Of a stretch of 64,000 nucleotides of DNA, positions 45,034 through 53,843 are shown one piece after another (the first letter of the stretch is position 1; the number at the start of each line of letters is the position of its first letter). The notes beneath the pieces were generated by a model. The model did not search any database, was not told where the DNA came from, and worked only from the letters and a program-made list of their open reading frames with translations. This stretch comes from Gammaproteobacteria bacterium (GTDB taxonomy: Bacteria; Pseudomonadota; Gammaproteobacteria; Steroidobacterales; Steroidobacteraceae): contig VBMV01000059.1 of assembly GCA_005878835.1 (NCBI GenBank), positions 1 to 64,000 on the forward strand, written 5' to 3'. Position numbers and translations under genes: made by a program.

Positions 45034-48000
45034 ATGCAGGCAATGGAAACGTTAAGCCAATCATCCCGGCGCCCGCCGGCGCAGGCGGCGGGCTGGCAGT
45101 TCTGGGTCGATCGCGGCGGTACGTTTACCGATGTCATCGGTCTGTCGCCCGCCGGCGAGCTGCACGTGCGCAAGGTGCCCTCGGCGAGCGCCGGTGGCGC
45201 GGCGGACGACCCGGGCTTGCGAGCGGTGCGCGCGATTCTCGCCGCCGCCGGCGCCGCCCCGCGTGCCGTGGCGGCGGTCAAGGTCGGGACCACCGTCGCG
45301 ACCAACGCGCTGCTCACGCGCAGCGGCGAGCCGGTGGTGCTGGTGACCAGCGCCGGTTTCGCCGATGCGCTGCGCATCGGTTACCAGAACCGGCCCGACA
45401 TCTTCGCGCGCGACATCGTGCTGCCCGAGCCCCTGTACGGCACCGTGATCGAGGCGCACGAGCGCATCGATGCGCACGGCGCGGTGCTGACGCCGCTGGA
45501 TGGGGCGCGCCTGCGCGCGGACCTCACCCGCGCGCGCCGCGCCGGTGCTCGCGCGGTGGCCATCGTCTTCCTGCATGGCTGGCGCCATCCGCAACACGAG
45601 CAGGAGGCAGCAAGCTGCGCACGCTCGCTCGGCTTCGAGGAAGTGTCGGTGTCGCACGAGCTGTCGCCGCTGGTGCGCTACGTCAGCCGCGGCGACACCA
45701 CGGTCCTCAATGCCTACCTCGCGCCGCCGCTGCGCAGCTACGTCGGCGCGCTGCACGAGCAGCTGCGCGCGCTCGATCCGCAGGTGCGCCTGACGCTCAT
45801 GCAGAGCAACGGCGGACTGGCGGCCGCGGAGAGCTTCCACGCCATGTCGAGCGTGTTGTCGGGGCCCGCGGGCGGGCTCATCGGCATGCGCTGGGTCGGG
45901 GAGCGCCTGGGCTACCCGCGCCTGATCGGCTTCGACATGGGCGGCACGTCCACGGACGTGTCACTGATCGACGGCGAGCTGCCGCAGCGCTTCGAGCACC
46001 TCATTGCCGGAGTGCGCCTGACCCAGCCGATGCTGGACGTGCACAGCATCGCCGCGGGCGGCGGTTCGGTGCTGAGCTTCAGGGACGGCCGCTTCGCGGT
46101 CGGCCCGGCCTCCGCGGGTGCGGACCCGGGGCCGGTGTGCTATGGGCGCGACGGACCGCTGACACTCACCGACGTGCAGGTGCTGCTCGGGCACCTGCGG
46201 CCCGACACCCTGCCCGCGCTCTTCGGGTGCGGCGGCCGCTCGCCCATCGATGCCGACGCGGTGGCGCGCCGCTTCGCCGCACTCACCGCCGAGCTCGGCG
46301 CGCAGGGCGCGCCCGGCGGCTCTGCCGAGAGGGTCGCCGAATCGTTCCTCGAGGTGGGGGTCGAGTCGATGGCGAACGCCATCCGCCAGGTATCCACCCG
46401 TCAGGGGCGCGATGCGGGCGAGTTCACGCTGTTCTGCTTCGGGGGCGCGGCCGGCCAGCACGCCTGCCGCGTCGCGCGCGCCGCCGGCGTGCGGCGCATT
46501 CTCGTGCATCCGCTGGCGAGCGTGCTGTCCGCCTTCGGCATCGGCGTGGCGGACCGCCTCGCCGTGCGCCGCGCGAGCCTGCGTCGGCTGCTCGACGAGC
46601 CCGGGCTCGCCGCGGCGCGCGCCGCGCTTGCCGCCCTCGAAGCGCAGGCGCGCGCTGAGCTCACCTCCCAGGGCGGTGAAGGCGGGCGCGTGCGCATCGC
46701 GCGGCTGCTGGAGCTGCGGGCCGGGGACAGCGACATCACGCTGTCGGTTCCGCTCGCGCCCCTGGATCAGGTGCGGCGGCGCCTGCACGCGGATCACCTG
46801 CTGCGCTTTGGCTTTGCCGCGCACACCCTCGCGGTGGTGATCGAGGCGCTGCGCGTGGAAGCGCGCCTCGCCTCGGTCGATGCCGCAACGCTCGCCATCC
46901 CGGAAGCCCCGGCGGTGGCCGAGCTGCCGCAGCGGGTGCGCGCCTGGTTCGGCGCCTGGCGCGAGGTGCCGCTCGTGGCCATGAGCGCGCTGCGCGGGGA
47001 GTTGCCGGGGCCGGCGCTGATCGTCGAGCCGCACAGCACGGTGGTGCTGGAAGAGGGCTGGCGTGCGCGGCGCCTCGTCGGCGGGGAGCTGCTGCTCGAG
47101 GATGACGGGGCGGCGCGCGCGGCGCTCGCCCCGGCGGTTGATGCCGCCCGCATCGAGATATTCAACAACCTGTTCATGCACATCGCCGAGCAGATGGGCG
47201 AGGTCCTCAGGGCGACCGCCCAGTCGGTCAATATCCGCGAACGCCTCGACTACTCCTGCGCCCTGTTCGACGGCGACGGCGGCCTGGTGGCCAACGCGCC
47301 GCACATGCCGGTGCATCTGGGCTCGATGGGCGCGAGCGTGCGCTCGGTCATCGCGGCGCAGCAGGCGCGGCTGCGTCCGGGGGACTCGTGGCTCCTGAAC
47401 AGTCCCTACCACGGCGGCACCCATCTGCCGGACATGACGGTGGTGACGCCGGTCTTCGTGGGCGGGCAGGCGCGGCCGGATTTCTTCGTCGCCTCGCGCG
47501 CGCATCACGCCGACATCGGCGGCGTGACGCCCGGCTCCATGCCGCCTTTCAGCCGCGCGATAGAGGAGGAAGGCGCGCTGTTCGAATGCTTTGCGCTGGT
47601 GAGTGCCGGGACGCTGCGCGAGAGCGAGTTGCGCGCGGCGCTCGCCGCTGGTCCCTGGCCGGCACGCAGGCCCGAGCAGAACCTCGCGGACCTGCGCGCC
47701 CAGCTGGCCGCCAACGCGCGCGGCATCGCCGAAATCGGCCGCGCCGTGCGGCGCCACGGTCTGGATACGCTGCGCGCCTACATGCGGCACGTGCAGGACA
47801 ACGCCGCGCAGTGCGTGCGCAACGCCATCGGGCGGCTGCAACCCGGCAGCTTCCGCTACGAAATGGACGGCGGCCAGCTGATCGCGGTGCGCGTCGACAT
47901 CGACCGCGAGCGGCGCCGCGCGCGCATCGATTTCACCGGAACCTCACCCCAGGGCGCGCACAACTTCAACGCCCCGCGCGCGGTGTGTACGGCGGCGGTG

Positions 48001-48666
48001 CTGTACGTGTTCCGTACGCTGATCGAGTGGCCGATTCCCCTGAACGAGGGATGCCTCGAGCCGCTGGAGATCGTCATTCCCGCCGGATCGCTCCTCGACC
48101 CGCGCCCGCCCGCGGCGGTGGCGGGAGGGAACGTGGAGACCTCACAGTGCATCGTCGATGCGCTGTACGCAGCGCTGGGAATTCTCGCCGCTTCCCAGGG
48201 AACCATGAACAACCTGACCTTCGGGGATGCGCACCTGCAGTACTACGAGACCATCGCCGGCGGCGCCGGCGCGGGGGCGGACTTCGACGGCTGCGACGCC
48301 GTGCAGACTCACATGACCAACTCGCGCCTCACCGACCCGGAGATCCTCGAGAGCGAGTTCCCGGTGCTGGTGCGGGAGTTCGCGATCCGCCGCGGCTCGG
48401 GTGGCGCCGGAAGGCACCGCGGCGGCGATGGCATCGTGCGGCGGCTGGAGTTTCGTGCCCCGTTCTCCGCAGCCTTGCTCGCCAATCACCGCCGCATTGC
48501 GCCCTTCGGGCTCGAGGGCGGGCAGCCCGGTGCCCGCGGTGAGGCGCGCATACGCCGCGCCGGCGGGGCGGTGGAGCCCCTGGGCGCCACGGCGCGCTTC
48601 GAGGTCGGACCGGCGGACGAGCTCCTCATCCTGACACCGGGTGGGGGTGGCTTCGGCTCACCGTAA
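45034..48666 (+). CDS. 5-oxoprolinase (fused HyuA/HyuB hydantoinase/oxoprolinase)
   Basis: FWVDRGGTFTDVIGLSP; GFDMGGTSTDVSLIDGE; HADIGGVTPGSMPPFS; C-terminal PGGGGFG. Confidence 0.94.
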   Translation: MQAMETLSQSSRRPPAQAAGWQFWVDRGGTFTDVIGLSPAGELHVRKVPSASAGGAADDPGLRAVRAILAAAGAAPRAVAAVKVGTTVATNALLTRSGEPVVLVTSAGFADALRIGYQNRPDIFARDIVLPEPLYGTVIEAHERIDAHGAVLTPLDGARLRADLTRARRAGARAVAIVFLHGWRHPQHEQEAASCARSLGFEEVSVSHELSPLVRYVSRGDTTVLNAYLAPPLRSYVGALHEQLRALDPQVRLTLMQSNGGLAAAESFHAMSSVLSGPAGGLIGMRWVGERLGYPRLIGFDMGGTSTDVSLIDGELPQRFEHLIAGVRLTQPMLDVHSIAAGGGSVLSFRDGRFAVGPASAGADPGPVCYGRDGPLTLTDVQVLLGHLRPDTLPALFGCGGRSPIDADAVARRFAALTAELGAQGAPGGSAERVAESFLEVGVESMANAIRQVSTRQGRDAGEFTLFCFGGAAGQHACRVARAAGVRRILVHPLASVLSAFGIGVADRLAVRRASLRRLLDEPGLAAARAALAALEAQARAELTSQGGEGGRVRIARLLELRAGDSDITLSVPLAPLDQVRRRLHADHLLRFGFAAHTLAVVIEALRVEARLASVDAATLAIPEAPAVAELPQRVRAWFGAWREVPLVAMSALRGELPGPALIVEPHSTVVLEEGWRARRLVGGELLLEDDGAARAALAPAVDAARIEIFNNLFMHIAEQMGEVLRATAQSVNIRERLDYSCALFDGDGGLVANAPHMPVHLGSMGASVRSVIAAQQARLRPGDSWLLNSPYHGGTHLPDMTVVTPVFVGGQARPDFFVASRAHHADIGGVTPGSMPPFSRAIEEEGALFECFALVSAGTLRESELRAALAAGPWPARRPEQNLADLRAQLAANARGIAEIGRAVRRHGLDTLRAYMRHVQDNAAQCVRNAIGRLQPGSFRYEMDGGQLIAVRVDIDRERRRARIDFTGTSPQGAHNFNAPRAVCTAAVLYVFRTLIEWPIPLNEGCLEPLEIVIPAGSLLDPRPPAAVAGGNVETSQCIVDALYAALGILAASQGTMNNLTFGDAHLQYYETIAGGAGAGADFDGCDAVQTHMTNSRLTDPEILESEFPVLVREFAIRRGSGGAGRHRGGDGIVRRLEFRAPFSAALLANHRRIAPFGLEGGQPGARGEARIRRAGGAVEPLGATARFEVGPADELLILTPGGGGFGSP

Positions 48667-50265
48667 AATCGCGGTCTCGATCTCCCACTCGACCCGGTGC
48701 TTCGCGGTCGCGGAGCGGTTCACCGACACCGGCCGCACCCGGCTCGTGCCGGCGCAATGCGTCACCAGCCAGGTGTCGAACACCCCCGGCTTGCTGCTGG
48801 CGAAACCGAACAGCAGGTTGAATTTGCCTTCGGCGAGAGTCTGCGGCCGGTTGACACGCTCATCGCTGATGACGAAGTGGCTCTGATCGGTGCCGGCGCC
48901 GGCAAAGGCGCCCTGCGCCGCCAGGGCGTCCAGAAAGGTCTCGACCCGGGCCTGGGCGCGCTGCCAGGTCGCAGGCCCATTATGTTCCAGCAGCACCCAG
49001 CGCGTGCCCTGCTCGATGCTCGCCGCCACGAACAGCGCCAGGCGCCGTGCCGAGAGGTACTGCCAGTCGCAGACACCGCCGCCCGCGCCCAGGGTGCGCG
49101 GGCTCACGTCGGGGCGCGAACCGACCCGCACCGACAGCAAGGTATTGACGCCCGCCTGCGCCAGCCGCATCCGATCGGCGTCGGACACCCCCACCGCCGG
49201 ACGCAACCCGGGACGCAGAATCGCCTCCTCGCTGTGCGCCCCCGCCCACACCGGCCAGGTCTCATCGGAGCGGGCGATCATGCCCGCCGCGGCGCCGCAG
49301 GAACCGAAGGTCTCTATGCGGCCGCGCAGCCGATCGAACGCCTGCACGCGCGGGTAGTACATGAGGGCGCTGTCGCTGCGGAACGGCCAGACCCGCAGGG
49401 CATCGAGCGCGGCGGGCGCGGACGTCCAGCTTGCTGGCGGGTCGACCAGCAGCAACGCCTGCCGGTCGCGGCACAGGCGCGCCGCCACCAGCAAGCTCGA
49501 CAGTCCCACATCGCGCTCGCGCGTCAACGGCGGGATGCACAGCAGGTTGAAGCGGGCGACGCCCTGCAGCGCAAACAGCCCGGTGCCGCTGCCGGCGGCG
49601 CCGATGATGTCGTAGTCGGTGAGCGGCGCGCCGTCATCCCCGTCGGGATTGGAGAGCGTGTAGCCGACCGCGACGCCCCCGGGTCCGCCGGCGGAGCGAT
49701 CCGGGCGCTGCGCGGGAACCGCACCCGCCACGCGCACCAGGCGCGATCCGAGCAGCAGGTCGGGGACGAAGCGGCCGGAAGCGGGCACCACCGACACGCG
49801 CCGGTAGATCTCCTGGTCTTCCACCAGCTCCGAGCCGGCGGTGCGCACGCGCTGCACCACCAGATTGAAGCGGTCGCGCTCGGCGCTGTTCAGGCCGTCA
49901 TAGTCCACCGAGGCGCGCAGGTACTCGCGCGAGCCGGGATTCACGGCCACCAGCTTGAGCTCGCTCCCGCCCGCCGGCAGGCAGAGGGTCGGCGGGCGCG
50001 CGCCGTTGGCGACGCGCACGATCAGTGCCTCGCGACCACCATTCTCGAAGAACTGCTCGACCGCGTAGGAGAGGGTCGAGGGCTGCCACAGGCCGCCGAA
50101 GTGCCGCTGGAACTCACTGAAGCTCGTGGTGCGCAGCGCCTGGTTGACCGGCCCCTTGAGGGTGCGGCCGACGAAAGCGGCGATTCCGGTGGGCACGCGC
50201 TCAATCGCGTGTTCGGTGCGGCTTTGTTGTACGAGTTCTACGCCGGACGCGGGGCTATCGGCCAC
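48658..50265 (-). CDS. contractile phage tail sheath-like protein (orphan)
   Basis: RVPTGIAAFVGRTLKGPVNQALRTTSFSEFQRHFGGLWQPSTLSYAVEQFFENGGREALIVRV (sheath N-term); TLGAGGGVCDWQYLSARRLALFVAASIEQGTRWVLLEHNGPATWQRAQARVETFLDALAAQGAFAG (sheath C-term). Confidence 0.9.
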   Translation of the reverse strand: MADSPASGVELVQQSRTEHAIERVPTGIAAFVGRTLKGPVNQALRTTSFSEFQRHFGGLWQPSTLSYAVEQFFENGGREALIVRVANGARPPTLCLPAGGSELKLVAVNPGSREYLRASVDYDGLNSAERDRFNLVVQRVRTAGSELVEDQEIYRRVSVVPASGRFVPDLLLGSRLVRVAGAVPAQRPDRSAGGPGGVAVGYTLSNPDGDDGAPLTDYDIIGAAGSGTGLFALQGVARFNLLCIPPLTRERDVGLSSLLVAARLCRDRQALLLVDPPASWTSAPAALDALRVWPFRSDSALMYYPRVQAFDRLRGRIETFGSCGAAAGMIARSDETWPVWAGAHSEEAILRPGLRPAVGVSDADRMRLAQAGVNTLLSVRVGSRPDVSPRTLGAGGGVCDWQYLSARRLALFVAASIEQGTRWVLLEHNGPATWQRAQARVETFLDALAAQGAFAGAGTDQSHFVISDERVNRPQTLAEGKFNLLFGFASSKPGVFDTWLVTHCAGTSRVRPVSVNRSATAKHRVEWEIETAILR

Positions 50266-50310: not shown

Positions 50311-50472
50311 TCAGCGGGTAGTCGGATTCTGGGCCGCTCCCGGCTCGCTGCGCTGCCGCGCGCCTTCCTCCCTGAGGCGCTGCGCCTCTTCGGCGCGCGC
50401 GCGTTCCAGATCCTCGCGCTTGCGCGCGATCTCCGCCAGCATCAGCTGCAGCCACTCGGACAGCGCCGTCAC
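50311..50472 (-). CDS. 53-aa predicted coiled-coil protein (not in ORF track)
   Basis: GTG 50472: MTALSEWLQLMLAEIARKREDLERARAEEAQRLREEGARQRSEPGAAQNPTTR*. Upstream GAGGAG about 8 nt from GTG. Sits 12 bp after the Ldt stop and 45 bp before the sheath start. Confidence 0.65.
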   Translation of the reverse strand: MTALSEWLQLMLAEIARKREDLERARAEEAQRLREEGARQRSEPGAAQNPTTR

Positions 50473-51779: not shown

Positions 51780-52277
51780 CTACAGCAGCACGGGCTGGTT
51801 GGGCAGCTCGTGGTCGCTGTGGTGCCGCCCCGGGAAGTGCCGTCCCAGCAGTGCCGCCACGCCCTCGATACCCGCGATCGAGCCCTCGCCATAGCGCCTG
51901 GCGCGGTAGTGCAGCTCCATCTGCCGGCACACCGCCTGCCACTCAGGCTGCGCGATGCGCTCGGCGATGCCGCGGTCGGCGATGATCTCGACCACCCGGT
52001 CCGCCACGAGCACGTAGATGAGGACACCGTTGTTGTACGCCGTGTCCCATACGCCGAGCTGTCCGAACAGCTGCAGCGCGCGCGGCCGTGGCGGCAGATC
52101 GTGCCACAGCTCCGGCAGATCCAGGGCGGTCTCGACCACGAAGCGGATCTCCCCCGCATGCTGCGCTTCGCAGCGGCCGATGGCCTGCTCGATGGCGGCG
52201 CGAACCTGCGGCGTGAAGCGCCGGCGCGTGCTCCAGCGCGTGGTGGCGAGGTGGCGAATGAGGCGCAGGAATCGCAT
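51780..52277 (-). CDS. TPM domain-containing protein
   Basis: VRAAIEQAIGRCEAQHAGEIRFVVETALDLPELWHDLPPRPRALQLFGQLGVWDTAYNNGVLIYVLVADRVVEIIADRGI. Confidence 0.9.
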   Translation of the reverse strand: MRFLRLIRHLATTRWSTRRRFTPQVRAAIEQAIGRCEAQHAGEIRFVVETALDLPELWHDLPPRPRALQLFGQLGVWDTAYNNGVLIYVLVADRVVEIIADRGIAERIAQPEWQAVCRQMELHYRARRYGEGSIAGIEGVAALLGRHFPGRHHSDHELPNQPVLL

Positions 52278-52290
52278 GACCAGGTCCCTC

Positions 52291-53190
52291 CTACCAGCTT
52301 CCGGAGGCGCCGCCGCCCCCGAATCCTCCGCCACCACCGCTGAATCCACCGCCGCCGAATCCTCCGCCCCCGAGGCCGCCGCCGAATCCGCCGAAGCCCC
52401 CGGCACGCGGGTAGCTCGACCAGCCGCTGCCACGCGCCAGACCGCCGAGCAGCGTGAACAGGAACGCGCCCGCCGCGGCGAGCAGCGCCAGGAGCAGCGC
52501 GTAGCCGGCGATCCACACCAGCAGGCCCGTGCCGACCGCGGTGAAGGCCGAGCCCAGCGTGCGTCCGAAGACCGCGCGCAGCAGCACCGAACCGACAAAA
52601 ACGGCGAACAGCATCAGCGGCAAGGGGCTCGAGCCGTGCGCGCGCCGGCCGGACTGCCACTCGTGCTCGGGGGGCGGCAGCGGCTCGCCTTCGATGAGCT
52701 TCATCATCTGCTCGAGGCCGGCGTCGATGCCGGCGTAGTAATTGCCCTGGCGGAAGGCGGGCCGCAGGGTCTCCGAGATGATGCGGTTGCACATGGCATC
52801 GGTCAGGACACCCTCGAGACCATAGCCGACCTCGATGCGCACGCGGTGATCGTTCCTGGCAATGATCAGCAGCGCGCCGTCATCCACCTTGTGCCGGCCG
52901 AGCTTCCACTCATCGACCACCCGGATCGAGTACTGCTCGATCTGCTCCGGTTCGGTCGTCGCCACGAGCAGCAGCGCGAGCTGCGAGCCCTTGGCGGACT
53001 CGAACGCCGCGAGCTTCTGCTCGAGCGCGCTCTGCTGCTCCGCGCTCAGGGTACCGGTGAGATCGGTGACGCGCGCCGTCAGCTTCGGGATCGGCTGCAG
53101 GCCCTGCGCGCCCGGCATCACCCCAGGGCCCAGCAGCAGCGCCAGCGCCAGTCCCGCCCGCGCTCGGGCGCCGCTCGAGCCGGCGATCAT
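52291..53190 (-). CDS. TPM domain (YgcG-like) membrane protein with Gly-rich tail
   Basis: RVTDLTGTLSAEQQSALEQKLAAFESAKGSQLALLLVATTEPEQIEQYSIRVVDEWKLG; GGGFGGGGFSGGGGGFGGGGASGSW end; 4-bp overlap with lemA. Confidence 0.93.
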   Translation of the reverse strand: MIAGSSGARARAGLALALLLGPGVMPGAQGLQPIPKLTARVTDLTGTLSAEQQSALEQKLAAFESAKGSQLALLLVATTEPEQIEQYSIRVVDEWKLGRHKVDDGALLIIARNDHRVRIEVGYGLEGVLTDAMCNRIISETLRPAFRQGNYYAGIDAGLEQMMKLIEGEPLPPPEHEWQSGRRAHGSSPLPLMLFAVFVGSVLLRAVFGRTLGSAFTAVGTGLLVWIAGYALLLALLAAAGAFLFTLLGGLARGSGWSSYPRAGGFGGFGGGLGGGGFGGGGFSGGGGGFGGGGASGSW

Positions 53191-53843
53191 TTCGTCGCGG
53201 GTTGTCCCGGGGACGCCGCGGCAGCGGCCGGCGCGGCCGGTGCCCCGGGGGGCGAGGTGTCGAAGCTGACCGTCGGGGCGGTCGCGATCTGCTGCTCGTT
53301 GGCGACCTGGAAGCTCGGCTTCACCTGGAAACCGAACATCTTCGCCGTGAGATTGACGGGGAAGGAGCGCACCGTCACGTTGTAAGCCTGCACCGCCTGG
53401 ATGTAGCGATTGCGCGCCACGGTGATGCGGTTTTCAGTGCCCTCGAGCTGCGATTGCAGATCGCGGAAATTCTGGTCCGACTTCAGCTGCGGATAGTTCT
53501 CGACCACCACCATCAGGCTCTTCAGCGCCTGGGTGAGATCGCCCTGCGCGGCCTGGTACTTCTGGAACAGCTGCGGGTTATTGAGTACCTCGGGCGTCAC
53601 CTGGATGGAGCTCGCCCGGGCGCGCGCCTCGGTCACCCCGATCAGCACTTTCTGCTCCTGGGCCGCGTAGCCCTTCACGGTGTTGACGAGATTCGGGATG
53701 AGATCGGCCCGGCGCTGATACTGATTCACGACCTCGGACCAGGCCGCCTTGACGCCCTCGTCCTGTTGCTGCAGGGAGTTGTAACCGCAGCCTGACAGGC
53801 CCAGGACCGCGGCACCCACAAGGGCGAGAAACCACGCGCGCAT
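53187..53843 (-). CDS. lemA: LemA family protein
   Basis: GCGYNSLQQQDEGVKAAWSEVVNQYQRRADLIPNLVNTVKGYAAQEQKVL; ENRITVARNRYIQAVQAYNVTVRSFP. Confidence 0.97.
   Translation of the reverse strand: MRAWFLALVGAAVLGLSGCGYNSLQQQDEGVKAAWSEVVNQYQRRADLIPNLVNTVKGYAAQEQKVLIGVTEARARASSIQVTPEVLNNPQLFQKYQAAQGDLTQALKSLMVVVENYPQLKSDQNFRDLQSQLEGTENRITVARNRYIQAVQAYNVTVRSFPVNLTAKMFGFQVKPSFQVANEQQIATAPTVSFDTSPPGAPAAPAAAAASPGQPATK

Follow-up and report, generated by a model that had tools for sequence, protein, structure and literature searches.

The window, a stretch of 64,000 nucleotides, encodes a full-length homologue of contractile tail sheaths that seems to be maintained without belonging to an injection machine. 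Its fold has been described before; its retention without such a machine is what is new. The reading as a whole, that of a domesticated sheath no longer part of a contractile injection system (CIS), is in our judgement probable. If true, a lone sheath that is widely kept and has degenerate arms would put a phage-tail module to a new functional use, and parts of phage tails would have a third fate in addition to the phage tail and the injection machine. To our knowledge, all characterised sheaths serve a tube-firing machine. No report of an orphan or order-wide tube-less sheath, or of the microprotein described below, was found in the openly accessible journal literature. CIS surveys require tube and baseplate genes (clusters without them are left out in PMC12210884), so a lone sheath is invisible to them. 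Coordinates of the features discussed are collected in Table 1.

Table 1 Features of the orphan sheath locus, with positions counted from the first nucleotide of the window.
Feature	Position	Strand	Remarks
5-Oxoprolinase	45034..48666	+	Converges on the sheath gene, 9-bp overlap
Orphan sheath homologue, 535 aa	48658..50265	-	GTG start; PDB phmmer, PHROG, AF2/Foldseek
Degenerate C-arm and C-terminal extension found only in orphans (starting near codon 511), codons 471-535	48661..48855	-	
Region of the KAPAG..LNPxGVNCLR loop of CIS sheaths and C-domain helices, codons 331-470	48856..49275	-	32/82 CIS-invariant residues kept
N-terminal arm region, codons 1-22	50200..50265	-	CIS consensus PGVYxEEVPSGVRT gone
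Unannotated 53-aa microprotein, (M)TALSEWLQLMLAEIARKREDLERARAEEAQRL...	50311..50472	-	GTG start; GAGGAG 8 nt upstream
LdtE-like LysM/YkuD L,D-transpeptidase, 414 aa	50485..51729	-	Lipoprotein-like signal (LIAGC)
Second TPM-domain gene	51780..52290	-	Upstream boundary approximate; assigned from relatives
TPM-domain protein	52291..53190	-	
LemA family protein	53187..53843	-	

Identity of the sheath homologue

The open reading frame is present exactly as given in the first-pass annotation, and its reading there as a tail sheath was borne out by PHROG 23 (tail sheath; E 6e-31, spanning residues 6-484), by phmmer against the PDB (9ezm, 4e-33; 8bky, 9e-29; 8bl4, 4e-28), and by Foldseek with an AF2 model built from 43 homologues (pLDDT 85.5, pTM 0.83), which retrieved 9ezm at 2e-29 plus further sheaths among PDB and viral structures. 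Only sheath-type proteins were returned by the search of solved structures, with the haloarchaeal CIS sheath 9ezm on top. The model has the sheath fold with subtilisin-like and C-terminal domains, and the open reading frame is a genuine full-length contractile-sheath homologue, closest to CIS sheaths. Its GTG start is also used in close relatives. The proposed check by profile search had a divided outcome: PHROG 23 was positive, whereas in the Pfam scan Phage_sheath_1 (PF04984) scored 20 bits against a cut-off of 31.4 and no match to Phage_sheath_1C (PF17482) was reported. Annotation by Pfam only would therefore overlook the gene, and the zero matches of PF04984 in its own genome are due to the weak profile score and do not mean absence. 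NCBIfam and PADLOC gave nothing useful for the sheath.

The Streptomyces cytoplasmic CIS (Cis2; 8bky, 8bl4, 9gts/9gtp) and the haloarchaeal CIS of H. borinquense (9ezm) have sheaths of the same fold and domain order, with 20-25% identity to the orphan in structural alignment (9ezm and 8bky/8bl4 are described in PMC11566945 and PMC10066040). Those sheaths are components of complete machines whose tube, baseplate, and further CIS genes are all present, whereas the orphan is accompanied by none of these.

Residues kept and lost in orphan sheaths

Positions with a conservation of 90% or more among 12 CIS sheaths were scored in 22 diverse orphans and counted as kept when retained by the majority of orphans. 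Of these CIS-invariant residues, 19/22 were kept in domain I (N-terminal part), 13/14 in the outer domain, and 15/20 in the subtilisin-like domain; the corresponding counts were 2/13 for the N-arm, 9/32 for the KAPAG...LNPxGVNCLR loop, 23/50 for the C-domain, and 6/21 for the last strand and C-arm, so that the handshake arms of a functional contractile sheath are not conserved. In the AF2 model, residues 1-17 have a pLDDT < 50 and strands are predicted at residues 497-504 and 507-513. Orphans run 3-93 residues past the end of CIS sheaths (at least 11 in all but one), compared with 0-2 among CIS sheaths. A hairpin in which this extension folds back and complements itself is suggested only by the predicted strands; a CIS sheath modelled with AF2 as control (pLDDT 54, shallow alignment) does not allow comparison of the C-arm strand by structure. 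Conservation restricted to orphans was seen at Q138, Q151, Y202, Y218, R263, and R291, which lie in the outer and subtilisin-like domains; this suggests that selection shifted from the assembly surfaces toward other faces of the sheath.

Structures of contractile systems show neighbouring subunits joined through a handshake of their N- and C-termini, by which the C-domain sheet in the next ring is augmented (PMC10457771), and a longer N-terminal linker blocks contraction (PMC10066040); the parts needed there are those that the orphans lost. Given the loss of arm and KAPAG-loop residues and the gain of a C-terminal extension, a canonical contractile sheath is unlikely.

Loss of the arm consensus does not prove loss of polymerisation, since certain sheath proteins can assemble into tubes on their own (PMC6357053). 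Like a polysheath, the orphan might polymerise unaided into a cytoplasmic filament or stack of rings that lacks a tube, a cytoskeleton-like structure with the microprotein as cap or nucleator. Such a filament would agree with the sheath fold kept in the AF2 model and Foldseek search, with the retained core of domain I, and with the precedent of a sheath that assembles in the absence of other viral proteins (PMC6357053); but the handshake arms and the C-domain platform by which subunits are joined (PMC10457771) are precisely the degenerated parts, and we hold it to be unlikely. The sheath gp053 of phage FV3, which forms polysheaths (PMC6357053), resembles the reading proposed for the orphan in that it can act without a tube in vitro; gp053 is, however, encoded by a complete phage and is not known to act alone in vivo, whereas the orphan is a stand-alone gene.

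Degenerate arms on a conserved fold are also the expected look of a dominant-negative subunit, and the orphan could be an immunity or defence factor, an assembly-incompetent subunit that poisons the sheaths of invading myophages or injection machines. Against this, its distribution is core-like, its locus is a fixed housekeeping one without defence-island context, PADLOC gave no match, and its similarity is to extracellular CIS (eCIS) sheaths, with no tblastn match at 1e-5 among 50,697 INPHARED phage records. A defence role is improbable on these grounds.

Search for tube and baseplate partners

According to the first-pass annotation, no tube, gp25, J, or DUF4255 gene lies near the sheath, and this holds for the entire source genome (4.18 Mb, 186 contigs, 95% complete): no tube (PF06841), gp25 (PF04965), Baseplate_J (PF04865), Pvc16_N/DUF4255 (PF14065), or second sheath was found in genome-wide searches. 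The genome is therefore without the tube of an eCIS or cytoplasmic CIS, without the gp25 and gpJ baseplate of these systems or of a T6SS, and without the cap-associated Pvc16_N gene of an eCIS. Nor was a tube or baseplate gene recognised adjoining any orphan sheath.

Seven of 148 order genomes were matched by the tube profile. Four of these carry an orphan (G042, G059, G527, G552; a weak fragment in G059), and three of the four have the match beside a separate CIS-type sheath. In the other 97 of 101 orphan-bearing genomes no tube was matched, and gp25 was likewise unmatched. Neither was matched in the single-contig orphan carriers G058, G472, G488, G496, G503, and G513, which argues against incompleteness as the explanation. 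Among the 41 genomes of the genus, both tube and Pvc16_N were confined to G005, where they lie in a separate eCIS with its own second sheath (G005:C96:17568-38942; sheath, tube, Pvc16_N, gp25, gpJ-like) beside a kept orphan, a natural comparison.

The sheaths of eCIS on replicons of Ensifer and Streptomyces (plasmid-borne) and Novosphingobium, and in other Gammaproteobacteria (comparison loci L095, L109-L111, L117, L121, L124-L129, L131, L132) form the sister clade and are about 35% identical to the orphan (P0001). A tube gene follows immediately downstream in the clusters examined, as it follows the CIS-type sheaths of L139-L141, whereas the orphans have none; the arm motifs PGVYxEEVPSGVRT and GFAPLKPAEFV, invariant in eCIS sheaths, are lost in the orphan, and no microprotein accompanies the eCIS sheaths.

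The orphan might still work in a CIS whose tube and baseplate lie elsewhere and are too divergent for the profiles. Its fold is that of a sheath and the metagenome-assembled genomes (MAGs) are incomplete (95%), yet the tube profile, which does match in CIS clusters, is blank in the source genome and in nearly all orphan genomes, including the single-contig ones; gp25 is equally blank, and the arm, KAPAG-loop, and C-domain motifs are lost. This explanation is already largely refuted and we give it very little credence, which disfavours the suggestion made at first pass that the other parts are encoded elsewhere. No CIS of which this gene could be a decaying paralogue was found in the genome.

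Distribution and evolution

The orphan profile matched 103 of 148 sampled order genomes (101 at > 200 bits; the six single-contig genomes among them), nearly always in single copy. In a maximum likelihood tree rooted with more distant CIS sheaths as outgroup, 18 orphan sheaths formed one clade (bootstrap 100, SH-aLRT 99), sister to the eCIS sheaths. Values of dN/dS were 0.15-0.29 against nine of ten relatives and 0.46 against the most distant, resembling those of the neighbouring transpeptidase. GC3 equals that of neighbouring genes, and nearly all homologues across the order are free of stops. Clade and distribution are most simply read as one capture close to the base of the order, from which losses in some families follow. 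Order-wide occurrence in single copy, vertical inheritance, purifying selection, a clade of its own, and degenerate arms support the domesticated sheath that had been put forward as the first of two alternatives. A decaying CIS or prophage remnant, to which the degenerate arms and the missing partner genes might point, is refuted by these conservation data (stop-free homologues, mostly low dN/dS, GC3 equal to neighbours, single clade), and neither phage neighbours nor patchy distribution nor decay was observed.

Locus and microprotein

The 5-oxoprolinase and L,D-transpeptidase reported as flanking genes were both confirmed. The orphan occupies a conserved housekeeping locus, with the order LemA, TPM, TPM, L,D-transpeptidase, sheath, and converging 5-oxoprolinase shared by Steroidobacteraceae MAGs, in which a small alpha/beta hydrolase and then a glycerol-3-phosphate acyltransferase lie beyond the 5-oxoprolinase. 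The LemA gene is possibly the first of a co-directional run that ends with the sheath; the 5-oxoprolinase is probably a syntenic neighbour, functionally unrelated to it. In distant families a transpeptidase is often found upstream on the same strand (L084, L087, L089, L093, L094; L167-L172, L174-L179), and it is missing in some lineages (L081-L083, L086, L090, L091); the adjacency may reflect no more than synteny.

Transpeptidase and sheath are separated by about 220 nt, a distance near-equal in close relatives, and this gap contains a microprotein gene that was absent from the first-pass annotation. It begins 12 nt past the transpeptidase stop, ends 45 nt ahead of the sheath start, and is preceded by a Shine-Dalgarno-like GAGGAG. 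Among 59 genome_contigs loci, 40 conserve the core of the microprotein, SEWLQLMLAEIARKREELERARAE; it was not found in the other 19, some of which are incomplete upstream; substitutions at codon positions 1, 2, and 3 number 109, 120, and 262. Nothing was found for it in Pfam, NCBIfam, or PADLOC. Rfam had no match at the locus, and folding of the gap was not clearly better than that of shuffled sequences (z -1.03), so the conserved gap is read as a protein gene, with no obvious RNA element.

A microprotein profile gave 32 matches at E <= 1e-4 among the 148 order genomes, all 32 on the contig and strand of the orphan sheath and 80-4939 nt upstream of it, and none in 25 CIS loci. With significant matches in 32 of 148 genomes only and 19 of 59 loci blank, the microprotein is either dispensable or diverged past detection. 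It precedes the sheath even where the preceding gene encodes an M48 peptidase or alpha/beta hydrolase and no transpeptidase was found; since it tracks the sheath there and is missing from CIS loci, the pairing seems to go with the orphan sheath and not with the transpeptidase. Sheath and microprotein would presumably interact physically. The transpeptidase was considered as sheath partner and is the weaker candidate, as the microprotein accompanies sheaths without a neighbouring transpeptidase (L163-L166, L173).

Proposed role

Under domestication, a sheath gene related to those of extracellular and cytoplasmic CIS would have been acquired in a single event close to the base of the gammaproteobacterial order to which Steroidobacteraceae belongs; the clade and its distribution are as observed, and the date and place of capture are what we infer from them. 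The gene would since have been inherited vertically as a single chromosomal copy, with scattered losses. The arm residues that lace subunits into a contractile tube have mostly been lost and the outer and subtilisin-like domains retained, and as contraction needs an arm mesh and a tube to drive, the orphan would no longer act as a contractile sheath. It is predicted to be cytoplasmic, no signal sequence being evident by eye, and may serve as a non-contractile scaffold or adaptor in the form of a monomer, small ring, or modified polymer. The retained outer and subtilisin-like faces would bind a cellular partner, and the co-encoded amphipathic microprotein might set assembly state or localisation, as regulator or anchor. 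The run of LemA, TPM, TPM, transpeptidase, microprotein, and sheath genes may indicate a link to envelope stress or maintenance, or could be synteny. This specific mechanism, a non-contractile cytoplasmic scaffold or adaptor with its microprotein and an envelope link, is put forward tentatively and is doubtful in its particulars. That most of the order employs a tube-less, arm-stripped sheath, paired with a helical microprotein (about 50 aa) dedicated to it, as a new cytoplasmic assembly or adaptor that does not inject and may take part in envelope upkeep, is a good possibility, if not quite an even one. The conserved microprotein offers a ready experimental handle on the orphan sheath.

Other sheath loci in the sample

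The sheath at L092:9188-10708 (G056:C3) was rejected as an orphan because it is CIS-type by sequence and tree; in a wider quick tree it grouped with all eCIS sheaths at 100, with the other orphans all outside. It is a lone sheath of another type, whose arms are intact and which matches PF17482, located between an acyltransferase and a zinc dehydrogenase in a genome that gave no tube match with PF06841 and that also carries an orphan-type sheath. In L096 and L097, CIS clusters contain several sheath paralogues alternating with tube genes (sheath-tube-sheath-tube). CIS-type sheaths, in most cases next to a tube gene, are also encoded on the IMG/VR contigs L135-L141; these are listed as viral but are probably pieces of bacterial CIS. 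L076, a MAG with the title Rhodospirillales (Alphaproteobacteria), has an orphan sheath in a gene order like that of L094 and probably belongs to the same gammaproteobacterial order, having been wrongly labelled or binned. Downstream of the sheath in family f7 lie an ECF sigma factor gene (L087) and DUF1800/DUF1501 genes (L087/L088); in L173 a DUF1800 gene comes directly after it.
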